From: Oscillospiraceae bacterium
GTDB lineage: Bacteria; Bacillota; Clostridia; Oscillospirales; Oscillospiraceae
Length of the DNA stretch: 34,622 nt
Assembly (NCBI GenBank): GCA_017516925.1
Contig: JAFXAQ010000066.1
Coordinates: 1-34,622, forward strand
Direction: 5' to 3'
Shown: one piece after another, positions 2 through 17,083 of the stretch
Layout of the letters: the number at the start of each line of letters is the position of its first letter
Position numbering within the stretch: position 1 is the first letter of the stretch
The notes under the pieces: generated by a model
Database searches by the model: none
What the model was told of the DNA's origin: nothing
The model's input: only the letters and a program-made list of their open reading frames with translations
Made by a program: the position numbers and the translations under genes

Positions 2-1063
2 CTGGCAGGCGGTGAACTGGAACTTGATGAAGTAAGAGCAATCACTGATTGGGTTGACTATAACGGTACGTTCAAGATTGATCCTAATAATCGCTACGTT
101 GTTTACGCTAAGGTTACCGACAATACTGGCAACATCTTGTATATAAATTCTGACGGTATTGTTTTAGACAACATTGCACCTACGCTTGAAGGTATTGAGA
201 ATGGAAAAACCTATTACGGCGATCTTACCGTTATCAAATCTGACGAGCAGTTCTATGACATTAAGATGGTGACGCTTGACGGTGAGCCGATGGGCTTTGC
301 CGAAGGTACTTACGGTCTTATTCCTGCCGACAATGCAGAGCATATTGTTGTGGTTGAAGATCACGCAGGCAACAAGACCACCTACACTGTGACGGTTATG
401 AAGAACTATACCGTAACCTACAAGGCTGACGGTGAGACTGTTTCCACCGAGACTGTCGGACACGGCAAGGATGCAACCCTTCCGGCTGTTCCTGCAAAGG
501 ACGGATACGTTGGCAAGTGGGACAGCGACGGCAAGAACATCACCGGTGATACAACAATTACGGTGGTTTACACGGAAATTCATGTTGTAAAGCCCAATGA
601 AGTGAAACCGGAGGATAAGACCGACCTTGAGGATACTAAGGCAAAGCTTGAAGAAGAACTGAAGGATGACTCCTACACCGATAACGATAAGAAGGACATC
701 CAAGATGCCATTGACGATATCGACGATGCCCTTGAAGTGATCGGCAATGCAGAAGCAGTCGAAGATCTCATTGACAAACTGCCGGAGAACATCACCAAGA
801 ACGACGAGGATGCAATCAAGGCTGCTGACGATGCCTATAATGCACTTTCCGACTACGAGAAATCCCTTGTAGACGAGGATGCAAAGAAAGCACTTGACGA
901 TGCAAAGGCAGCTCTTGCAGAGCTGAATAAGCCTGCTGACACTGACAGTCCTCAGACCGGCGATAACAGCAATCTTGGATTGTGGGTGTTCCTCTTAGTG
1001 TTGAGTTGCTGTTCAATGATTGCTTTGATCGTTATTGATAAAAAGAGAAAAATCGCAAAATAG
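2..1063 (+). CDS. Sortase-anchored cell-surface protein, C-terminal part (5' truncated by window edge)
   Basis: The frame is open from base 2, so the true start lies upstream; the first ATG at 137 is internal. The visible part contains an Ig-like region with GKTYYGDLTV and DHAGNKTTYTVTV motifs, then an InlB B-repeat-like segment (TVTYKADGETV to the GKWDSDGKNITGDTT region). A long acidic helical Lys/Asp/Glu-rich stretch of FIVAR/coiled-coil type follows. The C-terminus has an SPQTG sortase motif, a hydrophobic membrane segment and a basic KKRKIAK tail, a classical cell-wall anchor. SPxTG-type signals are known in Clostridia. The protein is probably exported and attached to peptidoglycan; its ligand cannot be deduced. 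A strong terminator follows directly. Confidence 0.9.
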   Translation: MAGGELELDEVRAITDWVDYNGTFKIDPNNRYVVYAKVTDNTGNILYINSDGIVLDNIAPTLEGIENGKTYYGDLTVIKSDEQFYDIKMVTLDGEPMGFAEGTYGLIPADNAEHIVVVEDHAGNKTTYTVTVMKNYTVTYKADGETVSTETVGHGKDATLPAVPAKDGYVGKWDSDGKNITGDTTITVVYTEIHVVKPNEVKPEDKTDLEDTKAKLEEELKDDSYTDNDKKDIQDAIDDIDDALEVIGNAEAVEDLIDKLPENITKNDEDAIKAADDAYNALSDYEKSLVDEDAKKALDDAKAALAELNKPADTDSPQTGDNSNLGLWVFLLVLSCCSMIALIVIDKKRKIAK

Positions 1064-1122: not shown

Positions 1123-1349
1123 GCGTTATATCAAGTCTTTTATGGCTTCTTTTAATTTCATAAGTGCCTTTTCACATTTTTTGCGTGCGGTATTGGCAGA
1201 GCTATATTCGGAACACAAGGGGACGTTTCTCTTGTGATAATGGAGGCTAAAAAGCGAGGTGAAAAATCACCTCTCTTTTGCTATGTAAAGGTCAAATTAT
1301 GCCGTTTTTCGCCAAAATTTTTCTTCAAAAATGCTCAGAAACCCAGTAT

Positions 1350-1424
1350 TTATAAGGCTTTATCGCATTTTTGTGTTATTATAACACGAGCCTCGATTCT
1401 TCTAACTATACCTGTTGCTTTCAT
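1350..1424 (-). CDS. Antisense micro-ORF 1, 24 aa, AbrB/SpoVT-like N-terminus
   Basis: ATG at 1424 is preceded by AAGGAG with a 10-base gap. The peptide begins MKATGIVRRIEARVIITQ and ends in KCDKAL before TAA. The first ten residues equal the usual start of SpoVT/AbrB transition-state regulators as I remember it (MKATGIVRRIDDLGR), but the DDLG turn is missing and the frame stops where AbrB would continue. Copies at 2373-2447 and 3384-3458 keep length, start, stop and most residues, with most differences silent. It could be a real small protein, an antitoxin-like or leader peptide, or a relic of an abrB-like gene spread with the repeat. Confidence 0.45.
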   Translation of the reverse strand: MKATGIVRRIEARVIITQKCDKAL

Positions 1425-1495
1425 ATATACATTTCTCCTTAAATTACAAATTGTGTTGTTATTATCTGTATTTCCGGGAGAAATATACCGCAAGA

Positions 1496-1524
1496 TTTAC
1501 TTTTGAAATGAAATATGATATAAT
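1496..1524 (+). promoter_or_regulatory. Sigma-A promoter of the 1546 gene
   Basis: -35 TTTACT (1496-1501), 17-bp spacer, -10 TATAAT (1519-1524). The equivalent promoters of modules 2 and 3 have the same spacing and a similar sequence. Confidence 0.75.
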
Positions 1525-1545
1525 AAATCAAACGAGGTGATTTAG

Positions 1546-2268
1546 TTGAACGAAGAACTTACATTACATATCAAAAAACTTCAAAGGCGAGCCATGCTTT
1601 CTTTAATTGCTATCCTATCGGCGATTGTTTCAATCGGTTTTGGAATCTTGTTTTTGTTTGTTCCGTCTTTTGTTGCTATCATCTTTTTCGCTATTGCTAC
1701 TATTTGCATTGTATATCTCATACACAGTAGTCGTACTGCTAAAAAAGAGGCAAAAGAAAACATTTATAAACCTGTCATTTTTAATGATGATAAGAATTTG
1801 ACTTTTGAAAAAATTGTTAGCATCTTTGAAAATTTGACAAATGAAGAAAATCAACTATCTACATCAGAAGATGTTAGATTTTTCCGACTAAATAAAATTT
1901 TCAAATTGAGAACCATAATTTATAGAACGGATAATTTCAATAAGAAAGATTTTGATAACGCCAAAGACCGCATCAATAAAAAGGCAAATAAAGAGTTGAA
2001 TATATCGCAGTGGGTAAATCGAATGGAAGCAGGCAATATGATGCGTTTTAATATCATTTGCACCGATGTATTAAACGATGCATTATATCAATTTCTTTCC
2101 CAAAATGCCAATCGAAACTTAACCAGAGTTGAGGGTATCATAAATATTGCTATTGTCGGTAATCAAATTATGATTCCACCACTTTATGGCGAATGCGATT
2201 TGGCAGAAATCAGTAGATATAAAGGTGTTGTTAAATTCATAAATCAAGTTTTATTAAACAATAATTAA
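1546..2268 (+). CDS. Hypothetical membrane protein with two N-terminal TM segments
   Basis: The start is TTG at 1546, supported by GAGGTGA at 1534-1540 five bases upstream; the first ATG is well inside the N-terminal segment. The 240-aa product has two adjacent hydrophobic segments near residues 15-60, then a soluble Lys/Asn/Glu-rich domain of about 180 residues. I recognise no catalytic motif. The topology suggests a membrane-tethered cytoplasmic domain. It is the only gene of module 1, with its own promoter and terminator, so it is probably expressed alone. Its strong AT bias sets it apart from the genes right of 5 kb and fits horizontal acquisition. The family is unknown to me. Confidence 0.75.
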   Translation: MNEELTLHIKKLQRRAMLSLIAILSAIVSIGFGILFLFVPSFVAIIFFAIATICIVYLIHSSRTAKKEAKENIYKPVIFNDDKNLTFEKIVSIFENLTNEENQLSTSEDVRFFRLNKIFKLRTIIYRTDNFNKKDFDNAKDRINKKANKELNISQWVNRMEAGNMMRFNIICTDVLNDALYQFLSQNANRNLTRVEGIINIAIVGNQIMIPPLYGECDLAEISRYKGVVKFINQVLLNNN

Positions 2269-2272
2269 CCAC

Positions 2273-2301
2273 AAAAGCGAGGTGAATTTCACCTCGCTTT
2301 T
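2273..2301. terminator. Bidirectional hairpin terminator at the left edge of module 2
   Basis: A near-perfect palindrome, AAAAGCGAGGTGAA / TTCACCTCGCTTTT, begins 4 bases after the stop of the 1546-2268 gene. The A-tract on one side and T-tract on the other suit termination in both directions. Confidence 0.8.
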
Positions 2302-2372
2302 GCTATGTAAATGTCAAATTATGCCGTTTTACGCCAAAAATTTTTCTTCAAAAATGCTCAGAAACCCAGTAT

Positions 2373-2447
2373 TTATAAGGCTTTATGGCATTTTTGTGTT
2401 ATTATAACACGAGCCTCTATTCTACGAACTATTCCTGTTGCTTTCAT
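2373..2447 (-). CDS. Antisense micro-ORF 2, 24 aa, AbrB/SpoVT-like N-terminus
   Basis: ATG at 2447 is preceded by AAGGAG (2466-2461) with a 13-base gap. The peptide is identical to copy 1 except His for Asp at residue 21. The silent differences from copy 1 (GGA/GGT Gly, CGT/AGA Arg, ATA/ATC Ile) are what selection on the protein would leave. The frame stays open upstream to 2591 but the extra part is unlike the other copies, so the conserved ATG is preferred. Confidence 0.45.
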   Translation of the reverse strand: MKATGIVRRIEARVIITQKCHKAL

Positions 2448-2457
2448 AATATATAAT

Positions 2458-2510
2458 AATCTCCTTGCTTTACAAATTTGTACTGTTAGTATCTGTAAAA
2501 CAAGGAGATT
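2458..2510 (-). promoter_or_regulatory. Inverted repeat that can sequester the micro-ORF ribosome binding site
   Basis: The arms AATCTCCTTGCTTTACA and TGTAAAACAAGGAGATT pair at 16 of 17 positions around a 19-nt loop. In a minus-strand transcript the 3' arm contains the AAGGAG of the antisense micro-ORF. Copy 1 has the equivalent structure at 1431-1484 with a different stem sequence (ATTTCTCC / GGAGAAAT). Confidence 0.55.
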
Positions 2511-2523
2511 TATACTGCGTGAC

Positions 2524-2552
2524 TTTACTTTTAATACTAAATATGTTATAAT
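2524..2552 (+). promoter_or_regulatory. Sigma-A promoter of the deacetylase gene
   Basis: -35 TTTACT (2524-2529), 17-bp spacer, -10 TATAAT (2547-2552). Confidence 0.75.
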
Positions 2553-2573
2553 GAATAAAAAGGAGGCAACACC

Positions 2574-3278
2574 ATGTTTTTTCGTGAACAAGCAAAAAAG
2601 AAAGCCATAACCTTCAGCTATGATGACGGCGTAACCCAGGATATTCGGTTGATTGAGCTATTAAACAAGTACGATTTAAAATGCACCTTCAACCTGAACT
2701 CCGAGCTTTTGTCCAAAAAGGGCATGCTTGTTCGAAAGGGTCAGCGGTTATCCCATTATAAAGTACATACAGAAGATGTAAAAACCATTTATGACGGTCA
2801 TGAAGTTGCCGTACATACCTTAACGCATAAAAATCTTACCAAATGTGATGATGCTGAAGTAATTCGTCAGGTTGAGACGGACCGATTGAATTTATCCGAG
2901 CTTGTGGGATACGAGGTTGTTGGTATGGCATACCCTTGCGGTGGTGTGAATAATGATGACCGTGTTGCTAACATTATACAAAAAAGCACTGGTGTTAAAT
3001 ACAGTCGTACCATTACCACAAATAACTGTTTTGATTTGCAAGAAAACCTCTACCGTTTTAATCCCACATCACATCATTTGGATTTTGAAAAAATGATGCA
3101 ATTAGGCAGAGAGTTTTTGGAATTTAAACCTAAAGAGCCAAAGGTGTTTTATATTTGGGGACATTCATACGAAATGGATTGCGGTGCAGATTATTGGGTG
3201 AAATTAGAGGAATTTTTCAAGCTCATCAGCGGTAAAGAGGATATTTTTTACGGAACGAACAAAGAAGTTCTCTTGTAA
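2574..3278 (+). CDS. Polysaccharide deacetylase (NodB homology) family protein
   Basis: The 234-aa product starts at ATG 2574 after AAGGAGG. NodB motif 1 appears as FSYDDG near residue 16, giving the general base and metal Asp. The HTLTH sequence near residue 80 matches motif 2 (HxxxH metal ligands), AYPCGGVNNDD matches the motif 3 region, and a later WGHSYEMD supplies the usual C-terminal histidine. This family removes N- or O-acetyl groups from glycans in a metal-dependent manner. There is no signal peptide or TM helix, so the protein is apparently cytoplasmic, unlike peptidoglycan deacetylases. The substrate is unknown. It is the single gene of module 2 and is AT-rich like its neighbours. 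Confidence 0.87.
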   Translation: MFFREQAKKKAITFSYDDGVTQDIRLIELLNKYDLKCTFNLNSELLSKKGMLVRKGQRLSHYKVHTEDVKTIYDGHEVAVHTLTHKNLTKCDDAEVIRQVETDRLNLSELVGYEVVGMAYPCGGVNNDDRVANIIQKSTGVKYSRTITTNNCFDLQENLYRFNPTSHHLDFEKMMQLGREFLEFKPKEPKVFYIWGHSYEMDCGADYWVKLEEFFKLISGKEDIFYGTNKEVLL

Positions 3279-3383
3279 ACAAAGCAGCGGAGTGAAATTC
3301 ACTCCGCTTTTGTTATGTATCGGTCAAAATATGCTGTTTTTCATCAAAATTTTTTCTCTAAAAATTGCCCGAAAAACCAGTGT

Positions 3384-3458
3384 TTATAAGGCCTTATCAC
3401 ACTTTTGTGTTATTATAACACGAGCCTCCACTCGTTTTACGATATCTGTCACTTTCAT
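3384..3458 (-). CDS. Antisense micro-ORF 3, 24 aa, AbrB/SpoVT-like N-terminus
   Basis: ATG at 3458 is preceded by AAGGAT with an 8-base gap. The peptide begins MKVTDIVKRVEARVIITQ. Its changes from copies 1 and 2 are mostly conservative (Arg to Lys, Ile to Val, Ala to Val; Gly to Asp is the exception), and several codons differ silently (ATC/ATA, GTA/GTT, AAG/AAA twice, TGT/TGC). Length and stop are unchanged despite the overall divergence of the DNA. Confidence 0.45.
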   Translation of the reverse strand: MKVTDIVKRVEARVIITQKCDKAL

Positions 3459-3482
3459 ATATCTTTATCCTTTTTGCAACTT

Positions 3483-3579
3483 AATGAATAATGAATGATG
3501 AAAAATGAAGGATGAATAATTAAGGTGTGCCGCAAGCGGACTATTTTAATCCGTCGGCATAGCCTATTCACTATTCATT
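3483..3579. mobile_element. Small foldback (MITE-like) insert inside module copy 3
   Basis: The ends AATGAATAATGAAT and ATTCACTATTCATT are inverted repeats (13 of 14), with inner arms TGCCG / CGGCA and GGA / TCC. The element is 97 bp with no coding capacity. It separates the micro-ORF from the forward promoter in this copy only. The surrounding 3279-3671 holds no other gene. Confidence 0.55.
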
Positions 3580-3622
3580 GGCGCAGCCTGCACCTACAAT
3601 CGTTTTACAAAATACCGCAGTA

Positions 3623-3651
3623 TTTACATTTTAGCATTTTCGTGCTATCAT
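3623..3651 (+). promoter_or_regulatory. Sigma-A promoter of the 3672-4812 gene pair
   Basis: -35 TTTACA (3623-3628), 17-bp spacer, -10 TATCAT (3646-3651). Confidence 0.65.
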
Positions 3652-3671: not shown

Positions 3672-4025
3672 ATGGCAGACCCCATTATAGAACAATTGGA
3701 GAACTTTCAAGCGTTTAGGGTTGACGCATATTGTGAAGATTATCCGGATGTTATTTTTGAAATCATTTTAGACAGGGAACCAACACAAGAACAAATCGTA
3801 ACTGCTGTTCGTGTTTTGGCGCAATTTGTTACCAAATACAACAAACGCCATTTTTTAAAACCGATTCATTATATCTCGGATATTGAAAATTTGCCCGACG
3901 GAGACCACCCCAGAGGCATTTATATACATATCGATTTTGGTAACTGTTCCCCTAAAGCGTTGATTGAAGCGGTATGTGAATTGGAAAAATCGGGACTGCC
4001 TATTTTTAGGGTAGCCTTACAATAA
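3672..4025 (+). CDS. Hypothetical protein, 117 aa
   Basis: ATG at 3672 is preceded by GGCGGTGA. This small acidic soluble protein has no signal peptide, TM helix or motif that I recognise. It lies 16 bp upstream of the DUF4375-like membrane gene, in the same direction and without a terminator between, so the two are probably co-transcribed. Small acidic proteins paired with DUF4375-type proteins can be immunity proteins, but nothing in this sequence shows that. Confidence 0.7.
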   Translation: MADPIIEQLENFQAFRVDAYCEDYPDVIFEIILDREPTQEQIVTAVRVLAQFVTKYNKRHFLKPIHYISDIENLPDGDHPRGIYIHIDFGNCSPKALIEAVCELEKSGLPIFRVALQ

Positions 4026-4041: not shown

Positions 4042-4812
4042 ATGAAAAAAAGCGGCTTGTTCTGTACGCAACTGTTTCTAAATGCTATTCGCTATGGGCT
4101 GTTGTTTGCTGTAGCGGTCATTGTTACCGTTATCGGCGCAGTATGGATAGATATTTGTTTATATATCGGCTTCGGATTACTCGCCCTGTATGCGATAATT
4201 TGTCTCGGTTCGACAATCTCCATGAATATGATCACAAAACAACTTTCCGAGGAAAACCCGGAATTTAATGCTATTATGGAAAAACTGGCAAACGACCCAG
4301 ATTCGTTTATAGCAGAATCAATGGCTAATTATGATGAGATGAAACAGCTGCACGGGGAGGCACTGTTAGCGCTTTCTGACGATGATTTGTTTGAGGCTGT
4401 TTATTTTCAAAACCTCGATATCGCTGAAAGTGCAGAGGACGAGGATAAGGAACTGGAACAATTTAGTGGTCCTCGCAGAACCGTGTACATATTGAGTATG
4501 TTTGATATGGAAATTCAGAACGGCGGTCTTTGCCAATTCTTCGTAAACTCGTCAAGCGCTGTTGCGCCGTATGTTAGTGAATCGCTAAGATGCGTAGGTG
4601 CAAACGAACATCTAAATCTTTTTGAAGAGTTTATCACAGCAAATAACATCGATATTTCTAATCTCGAATCATTTAAAGTATCCAGCATAAGAGGATTCAA
4701 AAAGCAAACCAAGCGGTTTGACTTTGATGCATTTGACGATGCATATTATGAATTGCCGGCTTTACAGGAAAAAGTAGTTACATACATCAAGAATAATATA
4801 AACGAGTTTTAG
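4042..4812 (+). CDS. Membrane protein with DUF4375 (DMP19-like) domain
   Basis: ATG at 4042 follows CCGGAGG. The 256-aa product has two N-terminal membrane segments (about residues 12-53). The soluble part ends in a domain with the DUF4375/DMP19 signature: EIQNGGLCQFFVNSS, then a CVGANEHLNLFEEFI-like helix and FDAFDDAYYEL. DMP19 of Neisseria was described as a DNA-mimic protein, and DUF4375 relatives also appear among small bacterial immunity-like proteins. Fusion to two TM helices would place this copy at the membrane. Its role is not known. The gene ends at the palindromic element 4814-5126, which provides a terminator. Confidence 0.72.
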   Translation: MKKSGLFCTQLFLNAIRYGLLFAVAVIVTVIGAVWIDICLYIGFGLLALYAIICLGSTISMNMITKQLSEENPEFNAIMEKLANDPDSFIAESMANYDEMKQLHGEALLALSDDDLFEAVYFQNLDIAESAEDEDKELEQFSGPRRTVYILSMFDMEIQNGGLCQFFVNSSSAVAPYVSESLRCVGANEHLNLFEEFITANNIDISNLESFKVSSIRGFKKQTKRFDFDAFDDAYYELPALQEKVVTYIKNNINEF

Positions 4813-10952: not shown

Positions 10953-12389
10953 TTACAGCGCTTCCACGAAGGCAAGCATTTTGTCTTTGGGGATGACGGT
11001 GGTATGCAGCTCTTTTTTCTGCTGCAAGCCTTGCAGGTTCCCGGGGACAGGTACACCGGTCAGCTTAGAAAGATAGTCCATCTGCTGGAATTCATCCATT
11101 TCCGCCACATCCTCCAAGGCAGACAGCACTGCTGCCGGGAACTTATAGGGAGATGCGGTGGACAGCACCACCATGGGGGCAGTATCCCCGGTTGCTGCCA
11201 CGTAATCTTCTGCCACTGCCCAGCCGGCGGCGGTGTGGGTGTCGCAGAGGTATTTCTGCTCCCGCCAGACCTTGCCGATGGTTTCCCGGGTCTTTGCGTC
11301 GTCGCAGTAGCCAGCCCAGAATTCCTCCTGAATTGCCTTTTTCAGGTTTTCAGGTACCCTATAGAAGCCTTCCTTGTTCAGGCTTCCCATCAGGCTTGCC
11401 ACCAAATCGGTATCCTCGCTCATCAGGTACAAAAGGCGCTCCAGATTGGAGGAAACCAGAATGTCCATAGAGGGAGAAATGGTCTTGTGCAAGGGTCTGC
11501 GGCGGTCATAAGTTCCGCTTTCAATAAAGTCCGTCAGCACGTTATTGGCATTGGAGGCACAAATCAGCTTGCCAACAGGAAGACCCAGCTTCTTGGCAAG
11601 GTAGCCTGCCAGAATGTCGCCGAAGTTTCCGGTGGGAACGCTGAAGTTCACCTTGTCACCCATTTGAATTTGCCCACGGCGCAAAAGGTCTGCATAAGCC
11701 TTGAAATAATAAGTAATCTGGGGCGCCAGACGACCGATGTTAATGGAATTGGCGGTGGACAAGCGCTTGCCGGGAACACCGGAGGCAAAGAGGTTTTTCA
11801 CGCCGGTCTGGGCATCGTCAAAGTTACCCTCCACGGCGCAAACGTGGACATTATTGCCCTCCTGGGTGACCATTTGCGCCCGCTGCACCCTGGACACACC
11901 GCCGTCAGGATAGAACACACAAATGCCTACCCCGGGCACATCCGCAAAGCCAGCCAATGCCGCCTTGCCGGTATCGCCGGAGGTGGCGGTGAGTATCATA
12001 ATTTCTTCATCCATACCCTTGAGGGTTTTTGCCTTGGTCAGAAGCTGGGGCAGCATACAAAGGGCTACGTCCTTAAAGGCTGAGGTAGGTCCCCGGAACA
12101 GCTCCAGAACCGTGAATTTGCCGGTGTCTACCGTGGGAGTCAGCTCGTCTGTTTCAAACTTTCCGGTGTAGGCATTGCCCACCAGCGTCCGCATATCCGG
12201 AATATCCGGAAGCATTGCGCCAATGAGCCGGGCTGCCATATCCATGGTATTTTCCTGCAAACAGGCTGCCACATCCACCCGGGGCAGCTGCTCCGGCACA
12301 TATAAGCCCCCATCCGGCGCCAGACCGTTCAGCACCGCCTGGGCGCTGTCTGCAATATTTTCCTTGGAGCGTGTAGAGTGATAAAGCAT
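10953..12389 (-). CDS. thrC: Threonine synthase
   Basis: The start is ATG at 12389 (MLYHSTRSK), preceded by GAGAGGAAATT; the open frame upstream of it overlaps the hom promoter region. The 478-aa product is PLP-dependent and converts O-phosphohomoserine to threonine. The Schiff-base lysine is Lys106 in GPTSAFKDVAL. The LTATSGDTGKAALAGF phosphate-binding loop and a TANSINIGRL motif are present. Length and N-terminal STR-type motif match the long (class I) threonine synthases. It lies divergent to hom-lysC-asd; homoserine kinase (thrB) is not in the window. Confidence 0.96.
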   Translation of the reverse strand: MLYHSTRSKENIADSAQAVLNGLAPDGGLYVPEQLPRVDVAACLQENTMDMAARLIGAMLPDIPDMRTLVGNAYTGKFETDELTPTVDTGKFTVLELFRGPTSAFKDVALCMLPQLLTKAKTLKGMDEEIMILTATSGDTGKAALAGFADVPGVGICVFYPDGGVSRVQRAQMVTQEGNNVHVCAVEGNFDDAQTGVKNLFASGVPGKRLSTANSINIGRLAPQITYYFKAYADLLRRGQIQMGDKVNFSVPTGNFGDILAGYLAKKLGLPVGKLICASNANNVLTDFIESGTYDRRRPLHKTISPSMDILVSSNLERLLYLMSEDTDLVASLMGSLNKEGFYRVPENLKKAIQEEFWAGYCDDAKTRETIGKVWREQKYLCDTHTAAGWAVAEDYVAATGDTAPMVVLSTASPYKFPAAVLSALEDVAEMDEFQQMDYLSKLTGVPVPGNLQGLQQKKELHTTVIPKDKMLAFVEAL

Positions 12390-12465
12390 AATTTCCTCTC
12401 TTTTCTTGCCAAAAAGCACAAAAACAGGCATAAAAAAATACCTATCTCTTGTTTTCTTAGCGGTA

Positions 12466-12494
12466 TTGCATTTTTTGTAGGTATATGATATACT
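12466..12494 (+). promoter_or_regulatory. Sigma-A promoter of hom-lysC-asd
   Basis: -35 TTGCAT (12466-12471), 17-bp spacer, -10 TATACT (12489-12494). A possible thrC promoter on the minus strand (TTGCTT, 17 bp, TATCAT) overlaps its -10. I see no T-box or lysine riboswitch in the short leader. Confidence 0.7.
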
Positions 12495-12565
12495 GTTTCC
12501 GGTAAAAAAGCAAGTGTTTTCCGCCAAGGGGCAAGACATAAAAACGATGAGCGAGGTTGCAAAGA

Positions 12566-13690
12566 ATGAATATTGGACTTTTGGGATTTGGTGTCGTTGG
12601 CAGAGGCGTATATGACCTGACCGCCGAGCGCAGCGATATGCAGGTGAAGAAAGTGGTGTGTCTGGAGGAAATCAACCTGCCGGACGCAGAGGTTACAAAG
12701 GATTTCCAGTCTGTGCTGGAGGACAAGAGCATTGACACGGTGATTGAAGCTATGGGCGGTCTGCACCCGGCTTACGAGTTTGTCAAGGCTGCCATTGAGG
12801 CAGGCAAAAATATTGTCACCTCCAACAAGGCTTTGGTTGCTACATTTTACGATGAGCTGATTCCCCTGGCAAAGGAAAAGGGTGTGCAGTTCCGCTGCAC
12901 CGCTGCAGTCGGCGGCGGCATTGGCTGGCTCAGCGAGCTGGAGCGCGCCCGCCGCATTCAGAAAATCGAGCAGGTTGGCGGCATTATGAACGGCACCTGC
13001 AACTATATTCTTGATTCTATGACCCGGCTCAGCCTGGGCTATGACGAGGCGCTGAAGCAGGCCCAGGCTTTGGGTTACGCAGAGGCCAATCCCACCACCG
13101 ACGTGGATGGCATTGACACCTGGCACAAGCTGATTTTGTCCTCCAACATTGCCTTCGGCATCAGTGTCGAGCACGATAGCGTTCCCGCAGCCGGTATCCG
13201 CCATATTCAGGCGCAGGATGTTAAGAATTTTGCAGAACACAACTTGGTGTGTAAGCTGGTTTCCACCGGCATTTACGACGGCAGCAAGCTGTCTGCCTTT
13301 GTGCAGCCCACCTTGTTCCGTCAGGGTGAGCCGGAAGCTGCTGTCACTGCCAACTATAACCTGATTACCCTCATTGGCAGCGCCTCCGGACGTATGAGCT
13401 TCTACGGTCAGGGCGCAGGTCGTTACCCCACCGCATATAATGTGGTGCAGGACTGCGCAGACGTGCTGGCGCAGAAGGGCTTCTACAGTCCCTACGGCGG
13501 CAAGGTATCTGCTGACAACAGTCTGACCCGTCAGTTCTATATCCGGGGCGACAAGGACCCTTGGCTGGATGAAAACACCCAAGAAACCTGGGGTAACGCA
13601 GTCGTTACCAAGCCCGTGTCCGTGGCCGCCATGCATAAGTGGCTGCAAAACCATCCCGGAACTTTCCTGGCTGCGCTGCCCACTGAATAA
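12566..13690 (+). CDS. hom: Homoserine dehydrogenase
   Basis: ATG at 12566 is chosen because GAGG lies 9 bases upstream; an in-frame TTG at 12557 overlaps that site. The 374-aa product starts with the Rossmann motif GFGVVGRG (7-14), contains SNKALVA, the catalytic-domain motif GGIMNGTCNYIL, and the substrate region YAEANPTTDVDGIDTWHK. It reduces aspartate semialdehyde to homoserine. It is shorter than the 430-aa enzymes with a C-terminal ACT domain, and I see none, so feedback by threonine through ACT is not expected. It is the first gene of the operon, 12 bp before lysC. Confidence 0.95.
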   Translation: MNIGLLGFGVVGRGVYDLTAERSDMQVKKVVCLEEINLPDAEVTKDFQSVLEDKSIDTVIEAMGGLHPAYEFVKAAIEAGKNIVTSNKALVATFYDELIPLAKEKGVQFRCTAAVGGGIGWLSELERARRIQKIEQVGGIMNGTCNYILDSMTRLSLGYDEALKQAQALGYAEANPTTDVDGIDTWHKLILSSNIAFGISVEHDSVPAAGIRHIQAQDVKNFAEHNLVCKLVSTGIYDGSKLSAFVQPTLFRQGEPEAAVTANYNLITLIGSASGRMSFYGQGAGRYPTAYNVVQDCADVLAQKGFYSPYGGKVSADNSLTRQFYIRGDKDPWLDENTQETWGNAVVTKPVSVAAMHKWLQNHPGTFLAALPTE

Positions 13691-13702
13691 AGGAGTTTTT
13701 CT

Positions 13703-15019
13703 ATGCTGAAAGTAACAAAATTTGGCGGTTCTTCTATGGCCGATGCCGGTCAGTACCGCAAGGTCAGAGATATTATTCTGGCTGACCCGGAGCGAAAGGT
13801 TGTCATCGTTTCCGCCGCCGGCAAGCGTTATTCCGACGACCATAAGCTGACAGACCTTCTGTATCTGTGCCACGCCCACACCAAGTACGGCGTTGCTTGC
13901 GACCCCATTTTCGATATGATTACCTCCCGGTACATTGAAATCCGGAATGAATTGGGTCTGCAGGTAGATTTGGAAAGTGAATTTGCCATGCTGAAAAAGC
14001 GGCTGGACGCAAAAGAGGTTTCCGAGGATGAGCTGGCAAGCCGGGGCGAGTATTACTCCGCCAAGCTGATGGCAGCATTCCTGGACTTTGAATTTGTGGA
14101 CGCGGCGGACTGGATTGTTTTCAATATGGACGGCACCGTGGATAAGGAAGTCTCCTATGCCGCCCTGAAAAAACTGGGTCACGGCAAGGGCATTGTCATT
14201 CCCGGCTTCTACGGCGCCATGCCCGACGGCAGAATCCGTACCTTCTCCCGGGGCGGCAGTGATATCACCGGCGCTTTGGCAGCGGCTGCGCTGGATGCAA
14301 CCGTCTATGAAAACTGGACCGACGTTTCCGGTATCCTGATGGCGGACCCCCGGATTGTGGATAATCCCCAGCCTATTCCCGAGGTTACTTATGACGAGCT
14401 GCGAGAGCTGAGCTATGCAGGCGCTCAGGTGCTTCACGAGGGTACCATCCAGCCCGTTCGGGAAAAGGGCATCCCGGTCAATATCCGTAACACCAATGAA
14501 CCTGAGGCGCGCGGCACCTTCATTCAGGAGGATTTCGAAACTGAGACCGACCCGGACCGGATTATCACCGGCATCACCGGCAAGAAGGATTTCTCCATCA
14601 TCACCATGTTCAAGCGCGGTATGACCAGCCAGGTAGGTGTCCTGCGGAAGGTGCTGTCTGTGCTGGAAAAGCGGGGCATTTCCGTGGACTTTGTGCCCAA
14701 CGGCATTGACAACGTATCTTTGGTTGTCCGCACAGAGGCGATTTCCAAGCATCTATACACCATTATGTCCCAGATTGAGCAGGATGTACAGCCGGACCGG
14801 CTGGAGGTTCTGGACAACATCTCCGTCATCGCCGCCGTGGGTCACCGGATGGCCTTCCGTCCCGGTGTTTCCGGTAAGATTTTCGCCGCTTTGGGTGAAG
14901 CGGGCATTAACATTCGTATGATTAACCAGGGTCCGGATGAGCTGAATATCATCTTCGGTGTGGACAACAAGGACTTCGCCGATGCCATCCGGGTTCTGTA
15001 TAACAGCTTTGTAAAGTGA
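13703..15019 (+). CDS. lysC: Aspartate kinase
   Basis: ATG at 13703 follows AAAGGAG. The 438-aa product carries the kinase signature KFGGSS (6-11) and the GRGGSD-like FSRGGSDITGA motif. Two ACT domains occupy the C-terminal third (FSIITMFKRGMTSQVGVLRK and VIAAVGHRMAFRPGVSGK). It phosphorylates aspartate, the entry step to Lys, Thr and Met. The ACT pair is the probable feedback site. It is followed after 10 bp by asd. Confidence 0.96.
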   Translation: MLKVTKFGGSSMADAGQYRKVRDIILADPERKVVIVSAAGKRYSDDHKLTDLLYLCHAHTKYGVACDPIFDMITSRYIEIRNELGLQVDLESEFAMLKKRLDAKEVSEDELASRGEYYSAKLMAAFLDFEFVDAADWIVFNMDGTVDKEVSYAALKKLGHGKGIVIPGFYGAMPDGRIRTFSRGGSDITGALAAAALDATVYENWTDVSGILMADPRIVDNPQPIPEVTYDELRELSYAGAQVLHEGTIQPVREKGIPVNIRNTNEPEARGTFIQEDFETETDPDRIITGITGKKDFSIITMFKRGMTSQVGVLRKVLSVLEKRGISVDFVPNGIDNVSLVVRTEAISKHLYTIMSQIEQDVQPDRLEVLDNISVIAAVGHRMAFRPGVSGKIFAALGEAGINIRMINQGPDELNIIFGVDNKDFADAIRVLYNSFVK

Positions 15020-15029
15020 GGGGTTCCAA

Positions 15030-16034
15030 GTGAGTAAGTTATATACTGTTGCCATTCTGGGCGCTACCGGCGCCGTGGGTCAGGAAATGATGAAAATTTT
15101 GGAGGAGCGCAACTTCCCTGTGGGTAAGCTGATTCCTCTGGCCAGCGCACGCAGCGCCGGTAAGACTTTGAAATTCAAGGGTGAGGACGTGACCATTGGT
15201 CTGGCCTGCGACGAAGCCTTTGAGGGTGTGGATATCGTTTTGGGCGCTGCCGAAAACGATATTGCGGAAAAGTTCGCTCCCGCCATTATTAAGGCTGGCG
15301 CTGTGTTCGTGGATAACTCCTCCGCTTTCCGGATGGACCCCAAGGTACCTCTGGTGGTTCCGGAGGTCAACCCCGAGGACGTGAAATGGCACAAGGGTAT
15401 TATTTCCAACCCCAACTGCTCCACCATCATCACCGTCACCGCAGTCAATGCCCTGAACAAAATCTCCCCCATCCGCACTATGACCGCCTCTACCTATCAG
15501 GCAGTTTCCGGCGCAGGCGCCGGCGGTCCTGTGGAGCTGATGGGCGAAGTGGAAGCCCTGTCCAAGGGTGAAAGCTACGAGCCCAAGATTTTCCCCTACC
15601 AGATTGCCTTCAACCTGATTCCCCAGATTGGCGGCGAGAAGGAGCTGGGCTACACCAGCGAGGAAATGAAGCTGCATTACGAGGGTCGCAAGATTATGCA
15701 CCTGCCGGAACTGAAGGTCAACTGCACCTGCGTCCGTGTGCCCGTTGTCCGCAGCCACTCCATTTCCGTTTCCATGCACTTTGATGTGCCAGTAACTGTA
15801 GAGCAGGCCCGGGAGGTCATTGCCCAGGCGCCCGGCTGTAAGCTGGTAGACGATTTGGCTTCCAAGCAGTATCCCATGCCCTTGGACACCACCGACCAGG
15901 ACATCGTGTTTGTGGGACGTATCCGCCCGGATATCACCGACGAATGCGGTCTGACCCTGTGGTGCTGCGGCGACCAGGTTCGCAAGGGCGCTGCCACCAA
16001 CGCAATCCAGATTGCAGAACTTTTGGTAAAGTAA
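15030..16034 (+). CDS. asd: Aspartate-semialdehyde dehydrogenase
   Basis: The start is GTG at 15030 with GAGGGG 6 bases upstream, overlapping the end of lysC. The 334-aa product has the NADP-binding GATGAVGQEM loop (11-20) and the catalytic Cys130 in NPNCSTI. A later QIAFNLIPQIG region and a VRVPVVRSHS motif carry substrate residues. It reduces aspartyl phosphate to aspartate semialdehyde, the substrate of hom. It is the last gene of the operon, closed by the terminator at 16046. Confidence 0.96.
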   Translation: MSKLYTVAILGATGAVGQEMMKILEERNFPVGKLIPLASARSAGKTLKFKGEDVTIGLACDEAFEGVDIVLGAAENDIAEKFAPAIIKAGAVFVDNSSAFRMDPKVPLVVPEVNPEDVKWHKGIISNPNCSTIITVTAVNALNKISPIRTMTASTYQAVSGAGAGGPVELMGEVEALSKGESYEPKIFPYQIAFNLIPQIGGEKELGYTSEEMKLHYEGRKIMHLPELKVNCTCVRVPVVRSHSISVSMHFDVPVTVEQAREVIAQAPGCKLVDDLASKQYPMPLDTTDQDIVFVGRIRPDITDECGLTLWCCGDQVRKGAATNAIQIAELLVK

Positions 16035-16045
16035 GAGAATAAGAA

Positions 16046-16080
16046 GTTCCCGGAATGCTTGACATTCCGGGAACATTTTT
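16046..16080. terminator. Bidirectional terminator between asd and the uxuA operon
   Basis: A 12-bp stem GTTCCCGGAATG / CATTCCGGGAAC with a 5-nt loop is followed by ATTTTT. It overlaps the stop codon of the converging uxuA-like gene. Confidence 0.9.
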
Positions 16081-17083
16081 ATTGTTCATACAATTCAATT
16101 GCGTTGAGAAGACCTCTCAGGTAGCCCACGGCGTTTGCCCGGGCGGTATGTCCCCAGCGGGTGTCAGTGGTCAGGAAAGGTACGTGGTCGTCCAGCATTA
16201 AGCCGTCGTAGCCTGCCTTATACAGCGCCCGCATAATCCTTGCCGGGTTCATCCGGCCCTCACCCAGGAAGCACTCCTGAAAATCCTCCACGGTGCCCTG
16301 TACATCCCGGAAATGCACCATATGCACCTTGCCCCGGGTGACAAACTCCTCAATCATTTCTAAGACCGTTTCCTCGCCGCCCAGCTGGGAGAAGGTGCCG
16401 ATACAGAAGTTAATGCCGAACGCCTCGCTGCTTGCGATTTTTTCTGCCTTGCGAAAATCGTCCGGGCAAATAAAAATTCTGTCCACACCGGCTACGTTCC
16501 GGATTGGTGGGTCAGAGGGGTGGACAATCAGCTTGATGCCGGCCTTTTCCGCCTCCGGCATAACGGCTTTTACAAAGTACTCGTAGTTCTTCCAAAGTCC
16601 CTCGGCATCCGGGAACTGGTTTTTCATATCCACCATATGCTTGGCGCTGACGGTGTAGGCATTGACACCGGCTTCTGCTTCTTTACTATTGAAAGCGGAA
16701 ACCTTTGCGCCGCCCCGGGCAGGGGCGGTAATGCTGGTGCGCCAAGCCCAGGTGGGGCAGAAATGGTGACCCAGCACCGGGATGCCCACCTGACCCATAT
16801 TGCGGATCGTCTTTATGTAATTTTCAATCTGCTCGTCCCGACCGGGAGTGCCCAGCATAATCTTATCGAAAAACCGCACAGGCACATTTTCGATCATTTC
16901 CAGCTTCAGGTCAAATTTCTCCGTGTACTCCTTCAGCCAGGTCAGGGCACGGACTGTCCAGAAGTCCTCGTCCTCGGTGGCAATGGGGGGTGTATTGAAA
17001 TGAAAGCCCTCAGAGCCCAGCTGCTTTGCCATAATCAGGGCATCGTCGTTAAATTCCTTAATGGCGCCCATAATAATTTTCAT
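16079..17083 (-). CDS. uxuA: UxuA-family mannonate dehydratase (short form)
   Basis: The start is ATG at 17083 (MKIIMGAIK), with AGGAGG 8 bases upstream. The 334-aa TIM-barrel protein has UxuA-type metal-ligand motifs: IVHPSDPP, INFCIGTFSQLGG, VHMVHFRDVQG and GLMLDDHVP. E. coli UxuA is about 394 aa, so this is a short relative. The expected reaction is dehydration of D-mannonate to 2-keto-3-deoxygluconate, but another aldonate is possible. It is the last gene of the operon, starting 1 bp after the SDR stop. Confidence 0.82.
   Translation of the reverse strand: MKIIMGAIKEFNDDALIMAKQLGSEGFHFNTPPIATEDEDFWTVRALTWLKEYTEKFDLKLEMIENVPVRFFDKIMLGTPGRDEQIENYIKTIRNMGQVGIPVLGHHFCPTWAWRTSITAPARGGAKVSAFNSKEAEAGVNAYTVSAKHMVDMKNQFPDAEGLWKNYEYFVKAVMPEAEKAGIKLIVHPSDPPIRNVAGVDRIFICPDDFRKAEKIASSEAFGINFCIGTFSQLGGEETVLEMIEEFVTRGKVHMVHFRDVQGTVEDFQECFLGEGRMNPARIMRALYKAGYDGLMLDDHVPFLTTDTRWGHTARANAVGYLRGLLNAIELYEQ

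Follow-up and report, generated by a model that had tools for sequence, protein, structure and literature searches.

Genes alternate with truncated spoVT starts in tandem arrays upstream of spoVT in Clostridia

Here we describe arrays in which unrelated genes alternate with a repeated block made from the start of the sporulation gene spoVT, starting from a 34,622-nucleotide stretch of DNA of an Oscillospiraceae bacterium (the window). The window is the entire contig C66 (JAFXAQ010000066.1) of an assembly of 1.65 Mb in 67 contigs that is 84% complete. Arrays of this kind stand upstream of intact spoVT in other Clostridia and are best seen as an exchange site like that of minimal mobile elements, repeated in tandem where serine-recombinase elements have left scars at spoVT. 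That the genes are exchanged on these scars, by homologous recombination within the block, is a reading about which we are evenly divided between belief and doubt.

The block occurs three times in the window (1249-1524, 2273-2552 and 3281-3651), with start-to-start spacings of ~1,022 and ~1,010 bp. Repeat search and BLAST agree here with an earlier note on this DNA, which had reported three copies with a period of about 1 kb and a constant order of parts: terminator hairpin, antisense micro-open reading frame (micro-ORF), binding-site hairpin (here the leader hairpin), ATACYGC motif and forward promoter. Two repeat families were found, D2 and D1, the latter covering 1314-1425, 2337-2448 and 3348-3459 (96% and 79% identity to copy 1). 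When the 280 bp of block 2 were compared with the whole assembly by BLAST, block 1 was matched at E 3.6e-84 (86%) and block 3 at E 5.3e-33 (78%, 174 bp); the other two rows were block 2's own hairpin on the opposite strand and 22 nt at the beginning of the genome's genuine spoVT (G000:C61). Blocks 1 and 2 carry a forward promoter that reads TTTACT-N17-TATAAT and an intact micro-ORF of 24 amino acids (aa), MKATGIVRRIEARVIITQK..., which in block 3 has decayed (MKVTDIVKRV...). Block 3 has also gained, as judged by eye, ~130 bp between the spoVT start and the promoter. Over the first 6 kb of the window, Rfam had three matches, each under the gathering score and none of them credible.

By its sequence, the micro-ORF is codons 1-10 of spoVT with their leader, broken at codon 11 and fused to a conserved arm, GTTATAATA. 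Its start, MKATGIVRRI, is the N-terminus of SpoVT, and the region upstream is similar to the leader of the genome's genuine spoVT. Past codon 10 it departs from spoVT into GA...GTTATAATA..., a tail of ~100 bp and a terminator-like hairpin; the hairpins of the block are a part of the spoVT leader and this terminator-like stem. The micro-ORF was therefore rightly noted before, and what is added is its identity as a truncated spoVT start and its decay in block 3. A sequence model of the truncated junction, R1, was built from 56 copies and supplies the scores below. The features of the array are:

2..1063, plus strand: partial surface-protein gene with a Flg_new repeat, at the contig start (ORF; Pfam PF09479, 1.3e-6)
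1249..1280, no strand: terminator-like hairpin of block 1, AAAGCGAGGTGA/TCACCTCTCTTTT (sequence; cassette-tail hairpins elsewhere)
1350..1424, minus strand: truncated spoVT start of block 1, MKATGIVRRI and arm GAGGCTCGTGTTATAATAACAC (R1, 71.4 bits)
1425..1493, minus strand: spoVT-derived promoter/leader of block 1, with a paired TTACA...TGTA element and ATACCGC (by eye, resembles the leader of the genome's own spoVT, L036)
1496..1524, plus strand: forward promoter of the cassette gene, TTTACTTTTGAAATGAAATATGATATAAT (sequence; a promoter pattern stands at this end in 33 of 88 cassettes)
1546..2268, plus strand: cargo gene for a 240-aa membrane protein (same cargo, with other neighbours, in L134 at 91% and L161 at 84% DNA identity)
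2273..2302, no strand: terminator-like hairpin of block 2 (sequence)
2373..2447, minus strand: truncated spoVT start of block 2 (R1, 67.6 bits)
2448..2518, minus strand: spoVT-derived leader of block 2, ending at ATACTGC (sequence)
2524..2552, plus strand: forward promoter of the NodB cassette (sequence; repeat family D13)
2574..3278, plus strand: cargo gene for a NodB-type polysaccharide deacetylase (Pfam PF01522, 3.9e-17)
3283..3313, no strand: terminator-like hairpin of block 3, AGCGGAGTGA/TCACTCCGCT, compensatory to that of block 2 (sequence)
3384..3458, minus strand: decayed truncated spoVT start of block 3, MKVTDIVKRVEARVIITQK (R1, 50.5 bits at 3391-3469)
3460..3600, no strand: inserted stretch separating the spoVT fragment of block 3 from its promoter (by eye)
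3623..3650, plus strand: weaker forward promoter of block 3 (by eye)
3672..4025, plus strand: 117-aa gene past block 3 (relative 79% identical over 117 aa in L264)
4042..4812, plus strand: DMP19/DUF4375 gene adjoining the array edge (Pfam PF14300, 2.9e-20)

Repeat search and model R1 found no additional block after the last of these genes within the window. It had been announced as a DUF4375 gene; the gene is there, and its Pfam match is to DMP19. Elsewhere the terminator-like stems vary with compensation, as in GCGAGGTGA/TCACCTCGC, GCGGAGTGA/TCACTCCGC and GCGAGGGG/CCCCTCGC, and 77 of the 88 cassettes have a tail hairpin whose stem reaches 8 bp or more; most of these hairpins are of the same family as that of block 1 and show compensatory changes in the stem. 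Promoter and terminator are a property of the shared block as much as of the cargo. The promoter-gene-terminator unit proposed earlier thus holds in part: cargo does recur with different neighbours, but both signals belong to the block as well, and breakpoints fall inside it.

A second type of truncated spoVT also occurs in the arrays; it ends after codon 33 (GDP), where a different sequence takes over (L037:497, L044:385, L067:365, L133:6475, L120:1276 and others); this cut is perhaps a second attachment site in spoVT. By eye, palindromic repeat elements also appear to have been inserted in the spoVT leader (L041:5970-6030, L088, L036:820-950).

The position of the truncated copies is uniform. 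In the loci of a pattern scan (see below), all 37 pairs of a truncated copy and an intact spoVT in the same locus (29 loci) have the copy upstream on the same strand. Eighteen genomes, chosen for truncated copies near spoVT or in tandem, were searched whole, a copy being called strong at 47 bits or more. They hold 54 strong copies, at least two in 16 of the 18, in keeping with the earlier claim of variable genes between conserved blocks in arrays of several copies. Where strong copies and intact spoVT lie on one contig, all 25 copies are upstream on its strand, in tandem with genes between them; the remaining 29 lie on contigs that carry no intact spoVT, two of these in genomes with the main array elsewhere. 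Since the contigs of L260, L257, L271, L039 and L045 end no more than ~100 bp from a block, some arrays are probably longer than assembled.

The stretches between consecutive copies yielded 88 cassettes, 659-5,817 bp long with a median of 1,864 bp; an earlier extraction from fewer loci had given 65. Exactly one ORF of at least 100 aa is present in 51 of them. The longest ORF runs against spoVT in 57 cassettes and along it in 31; the surface-protein gene at the left end of the window is likewise convergent to the spoVT fragment of block 1, an orientation that makes it the probable cargo of one more cassette, the left-most. The 149 cargo ORFs of at least 90 aa form 116 families, 23 of which have more than one member (protein identity 22%-100%). 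They include AraC-type regulators, N6 methylases, type I specificity subunits, homocysteine methyltransferase, methylenetetrahydrofolate reductase (MTHFR), GH125, GH123 and pyruvate-formate-lyase-like proteins, among others; the Pfam, PADLOC and PHROG tallies, made for 102 of the 116 cargo families, comprise the 25 most frequent of 113, 86 and 64 families. Cargo is shuffled. Family F0 comes after F103 in L065, after F7 in L150 and after F10 in L273, and before F48 in L264; F8 adjoins intact spoVT in L267 and precedes F9 in L276. The same holds for the 240-aa gene of the window, and the relative of its 117-aa gene is the sole cargo of the 659-bp cassette in L264. The fixed gene order that the earlier note had named as telling against cassettes was thus not what we found.

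The block is spread patchily. BLAST with 188 bp of block 2 found matches in 40 of 400 family genomes, but many of these are just intact spoVT starts. The pattern scan, of a genome collection described as holding 84,980 species, returned at least 118 stretches with truncated copies; among the 80 matches listed, the titles name Clostridia families, Bacillota or uncultured bacterium, and 79 are titled as metagenome-assembled genomes. Carriers are various Clostridia known chiefly from gut samples. With R1 at a cut-off of E 1e-13 and strict filters, a copy was found in 14 of 400 family genomes (11 of 106 genera) and, at the level of the class, in 10 of 391 genomes, which represent 10 of 223 genera and, counted by hand, 9 families; the window genome is included in the latter set. 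Three of ten sampled species of the window's genus carry copies, namely two strong and one decayed, two, and one; the seven other species have none. The reading of the window as a cassette array is largely borne out and gains from this difference in copy number and from the shuffled cargo; what the earlier note had not seen is the origin of the block in spoVT and an element, and the place of the arrays upstream of intact spoVT. No match to the block was found in phage and plasmid collections, and IMG/VR gave one contig.

The source of the junction is indicated by elements that split spoVT. At locus L070, a 2,896-bp element carries, adjoining the junction, the gene for a 523-aa large serine recombinase (Pfam Recombinase, PF07508, 3.2e-25; Resolvase, PF00239, 7.7e-17) that matches TnpX (PDB 2mhc) at 1.3e-19. 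Both ends have GACGAT, which includes GA, and when its flanks are joined an uninterrupted SpoVT of 180 aa results, so that the element would have inserted between codons 10 and 11 at this GA. Such TnpX-like elements are, as far as sequence can tell, inserted at this one position and split the gene; cassette blocks and serine-recombinase elements have the truncated-spoVT left junction in common. Of 26 genomes selected for element-like ends at the truncated junction, 14 lack codons 1-10 ahead of codon 11 of spoVT and have an element arm there (TTTTGCACCTACTTGACACAATGG and variants; L070:3895-6821, L173-L178, L180-L187). A recombinase ORF stands beside the junction in nine of these, contig ends are too near in four, and L184 has other ORFs. 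The other 12 genomes have an intact spoVT (three), short matches alone (two), no match (three) or a match starting at residue 25-28 (four, L188-L191). Among eight recombinases that adjoin a split spoVT, pairwise identity is 37-81% (28 of 28 pairs).

Large elements with the same left junction carry what look by eye to be DUF5348-like, RepA, ParA, ParB and VirD4-like genes. In L277 (reverse strand, 11182-16208), three tandem large serine recombinase genes (591, 564 and 519 aa; ~30% identical) directly precede split spoVT. Joining the ends of the L070 element, as in its circular form, yields TTGACA, 17 bp and TATAAT, a predicted full promoter that would exist after excision alone. Split spoVT is a possible developmental switch in Clostridia, comparable to skin. 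Three genomes were examined for insertion of an element followed by rescue: G407 has an element with three recombinases and a split spoVT, and G408 and G410 have element fragments, a GNAT gene and an intact spoVT, on contigs too short to establish the order of events.

These results suggest a model in four parts, of which the sequences show the first two. TnpX-like elements insert in spoVT at the GA of codons 10/11, giving a left end of leader, codons 1-10 and the arm GA...GTTATAATA. Blocks with this kind of left junction, the ~100-bp tail and the terminator-like hairpin alternate with cargo upstream of intact spoVT. Homologous recombination, which we infer from the breakpoints, would swap cargo between genomes, acting in terminator or tail on one side and in the promoter and spoVT leader on the other. 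Finally, recombination between copies would leave one working spoVT, and the site may tolerate gain, loss and exchange because each block has a spoVT promoter and start. Arrays would probably grow through unequal crossing over and through elements inserting again and again, with spoVT then restored from incoming DNA. Exchange of this kind would require no dedicated recombinase.

The evidence for the route comes from codons and breakpoints, compared after exclusion of copies too close to a locus end (121, 145 and, for the comparison with own-locus spoVT, 167 truncated copies kept). Among 13 fully bounded pairs of cassettes with the same cargo, not all of them independent and six of them beyond tail comparison, 5.2 of the 9 wobble positions of codons 2-10 are the same on the left side and 5.1 on the right, against 4.3 in random pairs; larger sets gave 5.5 for 25 pairs on the left and 4.8 for 35 on the right. 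Truncated copies resemble the intact spoVT of their own locus more than others (5.88 versus 4.74; 0 of 2000 permutations). A metH/metF-like cassette is 98.9% identical over 3.8 kb between L258 and L271, with unlike flanks, the identity starting inside the terminator hairpin and stopping in the spoVT promoter. In 18 same-cargo pairs, some of which are whole elements, left breakpoints range from -93 to +196 relative to GA; the right breakpoints that were placed lie at -100, -52, -34, -19, -19, -13, +18 and +29. Tails are exchanged too: with the same cargo and different tail types, homology resumes at TATACATAGC and the terminator (five of the nine pairs shown). Since the flanking codons mostly stay behind and the breakpoints vary, homologous recombination within the block that cassettes have in common seems to be the route of exchange.

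Several observations weigh against this view. All ten codons are in common in L124/L162, L041/L089 and L072/L106. The right estimator placed only 8 of the 18 pairs, and two of these extend past GA. Left breaks lie within 5 bp of GA in 3 of 18 pairs and at -31 to -37 in six more, which cannot be distinguished from GA because the codons are conserved; half therefore fit a serine recombinase. Where tails differ, the clustering of left breaks at TATACATAGC and the terminator is sharper than free homologous recombination predicts, and the homology available is short and frequently 80-90% identical. The array of the window and the genome's own intact spoVT (C61) lie on different contigs, so either the array has been separated from the gene or it adjoins a gap in the assembly. 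At the strict cut-off, the family census has just one match in 12 of its 14 positive genomes, and the class census in 9 of its 10, some of these single matches being the end of a large element and not a cassette; the once-per-genome occurrence named earlier as adverse to cassettes is thus seen in part. One genome per species was compared, so gain and loss among strains are not visible. On balance the combined evidence appears to fit homologous recombination better than exact insertion, with the left breaks keeping a recombinase in contention.

The strongest alternative resembles an integron: a TnpX-like recombinase supplied in trans would insert circular cassettes at the GA of codon 11, and the spoVT promoter and codons 1-10 brought by each cassette would regenerate the site. 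It accounts for the nine left breaks at GA or not distinguishable from it, for truncated copies lying upstream of intact spoVT and for the arm GTTATAATA being kept in aligned copies, although the search pattern favoured such copies. An enzyme of suitable habits is known, in that PMC5704250 describes the Tn4451 recombinase as acting at 2-bp GA sites without a directionality factor. This model predicts that codons 1-10 on the right travel with the cargo, whereas they mostly stay behind, and the same cargo often has different tails.

The search for its enzyme was also largely negative. The window has, as the earlier note stated, no integrase: its contig gave no match to Phage_integrase (PF00589) or Recombinase (PF07508) at E 0.001. 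Elsewhere in the window genome there are seven PF00589 matches and one of PF07508. On the array contigs of the 18 genomes, the nearest one listed is the end fragment of a serine recombinase (G114:C29:36-287), ~16.5 kb from the G114 block; two of these incompletely assembled genomes lack PF07508 and two PF00589, one of them lacking both. The L070 enzyme has a match in 22 of 30 array genomes and none in 8, the best long match being 39% identical. Apart from one fragment at a contig edge in G444, which is 47% identical to the L070 enzyme over ~105 residues and 45-59% identical to the spoVT-splitting group over 56-104, no resident recombinase of the spoVT type was found in array genomes; for 11 other recombinases of array genomes, identity to that group of eight does not exceed 34%. 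Among the cargo, phmmer with the L070 enzyme against the 149 ORFs gave no match at E 1 and a tyrosine recombinase motif search of 116 representatives found none, so that these searches revealed no moving enzyme, though a rare recombinase could escape tallies of the commonest families. Taken together, we regard the integron-like alternative as unlikely, though it deserves to be kept in view. Slightly more doubtful is the wider proposal that Clostridia have a new kind of cassette system: the 5' end of spoVT would be the entry site, the serine recombinase of a conjugative element would mobilise cassettes lacking their own, and each insertion would rebuild spoVT with the replacement promoter and start that every cassette carries.

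A different enzyme, a site-specific recombinase or transposase, might move cargo at imperfect inverted repeats, TTTATACATAGC and TTTATACTGC, that lie on opposite sides in the block. An ATACATA motif is present in 60 of 88 cassettes and a TATACYG/TATACAGC motif in 58, and the 98.9%-identical transfer ends near both; it is also there that left breaks cluster in five of the nine pairs shown. However, the right motif occurs in similar form in the cassette-free spoVT promoter of L036, other right breaks fall elsewhere, and the searches made found no such enzyme in the cargo; we consider this improbable. Plain tandem duplication and decay of a segment beside spoVT, with vertical inheritance of cargo, would explain tandem, diverged repeats and the decay of block 3, but is contradicted by 98.9%-identical cargo in foreign flanks and by varied neighbours and orders, and can be given very little credence.

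Several known systems come close to the arrays. Minimal mobile elements of Neisseria consist of different genes between conserved neighbours, exchanged by RecA-dependent homologous recombination after DNA uptake. They resemble the spoVT arrays in having exchangeable genes in homologous flanks and no enzyme of their own, and the same cargo in foreign flanks was found here; they differ in that the spoVT flank is a single tandemly repeated block, a truncated sporulation gene with an element end, which gives arrays. Integrons and chromosomal gene-cassette arrays comprise functionally unrelated, repeat-bounded units, often of one gene, next to a fixed site; the attC sites of integrons recombine as folded single strands. 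To our knowledge they are scarcely known from Clostridia. The spoVT array likewise has repeat-bounded units of unrelated function beside a fixed site, but it lacks a nearby integrase gene, its block is double-stranded homology, and many of its cassettes have their own promoter and terminator-like hairpin. Staphylococcal cassette chromosome elements use a large serine recombinase to target a housekeeping gene, rlmH, whose end is regenerated, and form composite islands. Large serine recombinase, single target gene, composite islands and regenerated gene end are features in common, whereas here the target is the 5' end of spoVT, units are as small as 0.7 kb and no recombinase was found in the array. 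Compared with large serine recombinase elements in general, the cassettes have no recombinase in cis among the 149 cargo ORFs, and the right end mostly does not travel with the cargo, the left end partly.

The literature describes the closest relatives of the splitting elements. TnpX, the recombinase of the mobilizable element Tn4451, uses numerous 2-bp GA sites (PMC5704250, PMC3158075); the recombinases of the splitting elements are TnpX-like and also appear to join at GA, but all at one spoVT site. The skin element splits sigK (PMC5025042), and skin, gin and SPbeta are alike in interrupting a sporulation gene that is intact after excision (PMC5025042, PMC5595907, PMC4191935). In the case described here the gene is spoVT, excision is predicted from sequence, and the cassettes leave spoVT uninterrupted. 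The publications searched on spoVT, cassette arrays and serine-recombinase or intervening elements, most subscription journals being outside their scope, contained in their accessible parts no such arrays or spoVT attachment site.

The locus would give Clostridia the equivalent of an integron as a site for sampling genes, among them restriction systems, methionine genes, genes of sugar degradation and many proteins of no known family. A target of mobile elements in a sporulation gene would thereby have been turned into a lasting site of gene exchange, and the region upstream of spoVT is a place to seek accessory genes in other genomes. Away from the array, the window holds at 22610-34373 genes that by eye resemble methylaspartate mutase/ammonia-lyase and citrate lyase genes (glutamate fermentation).

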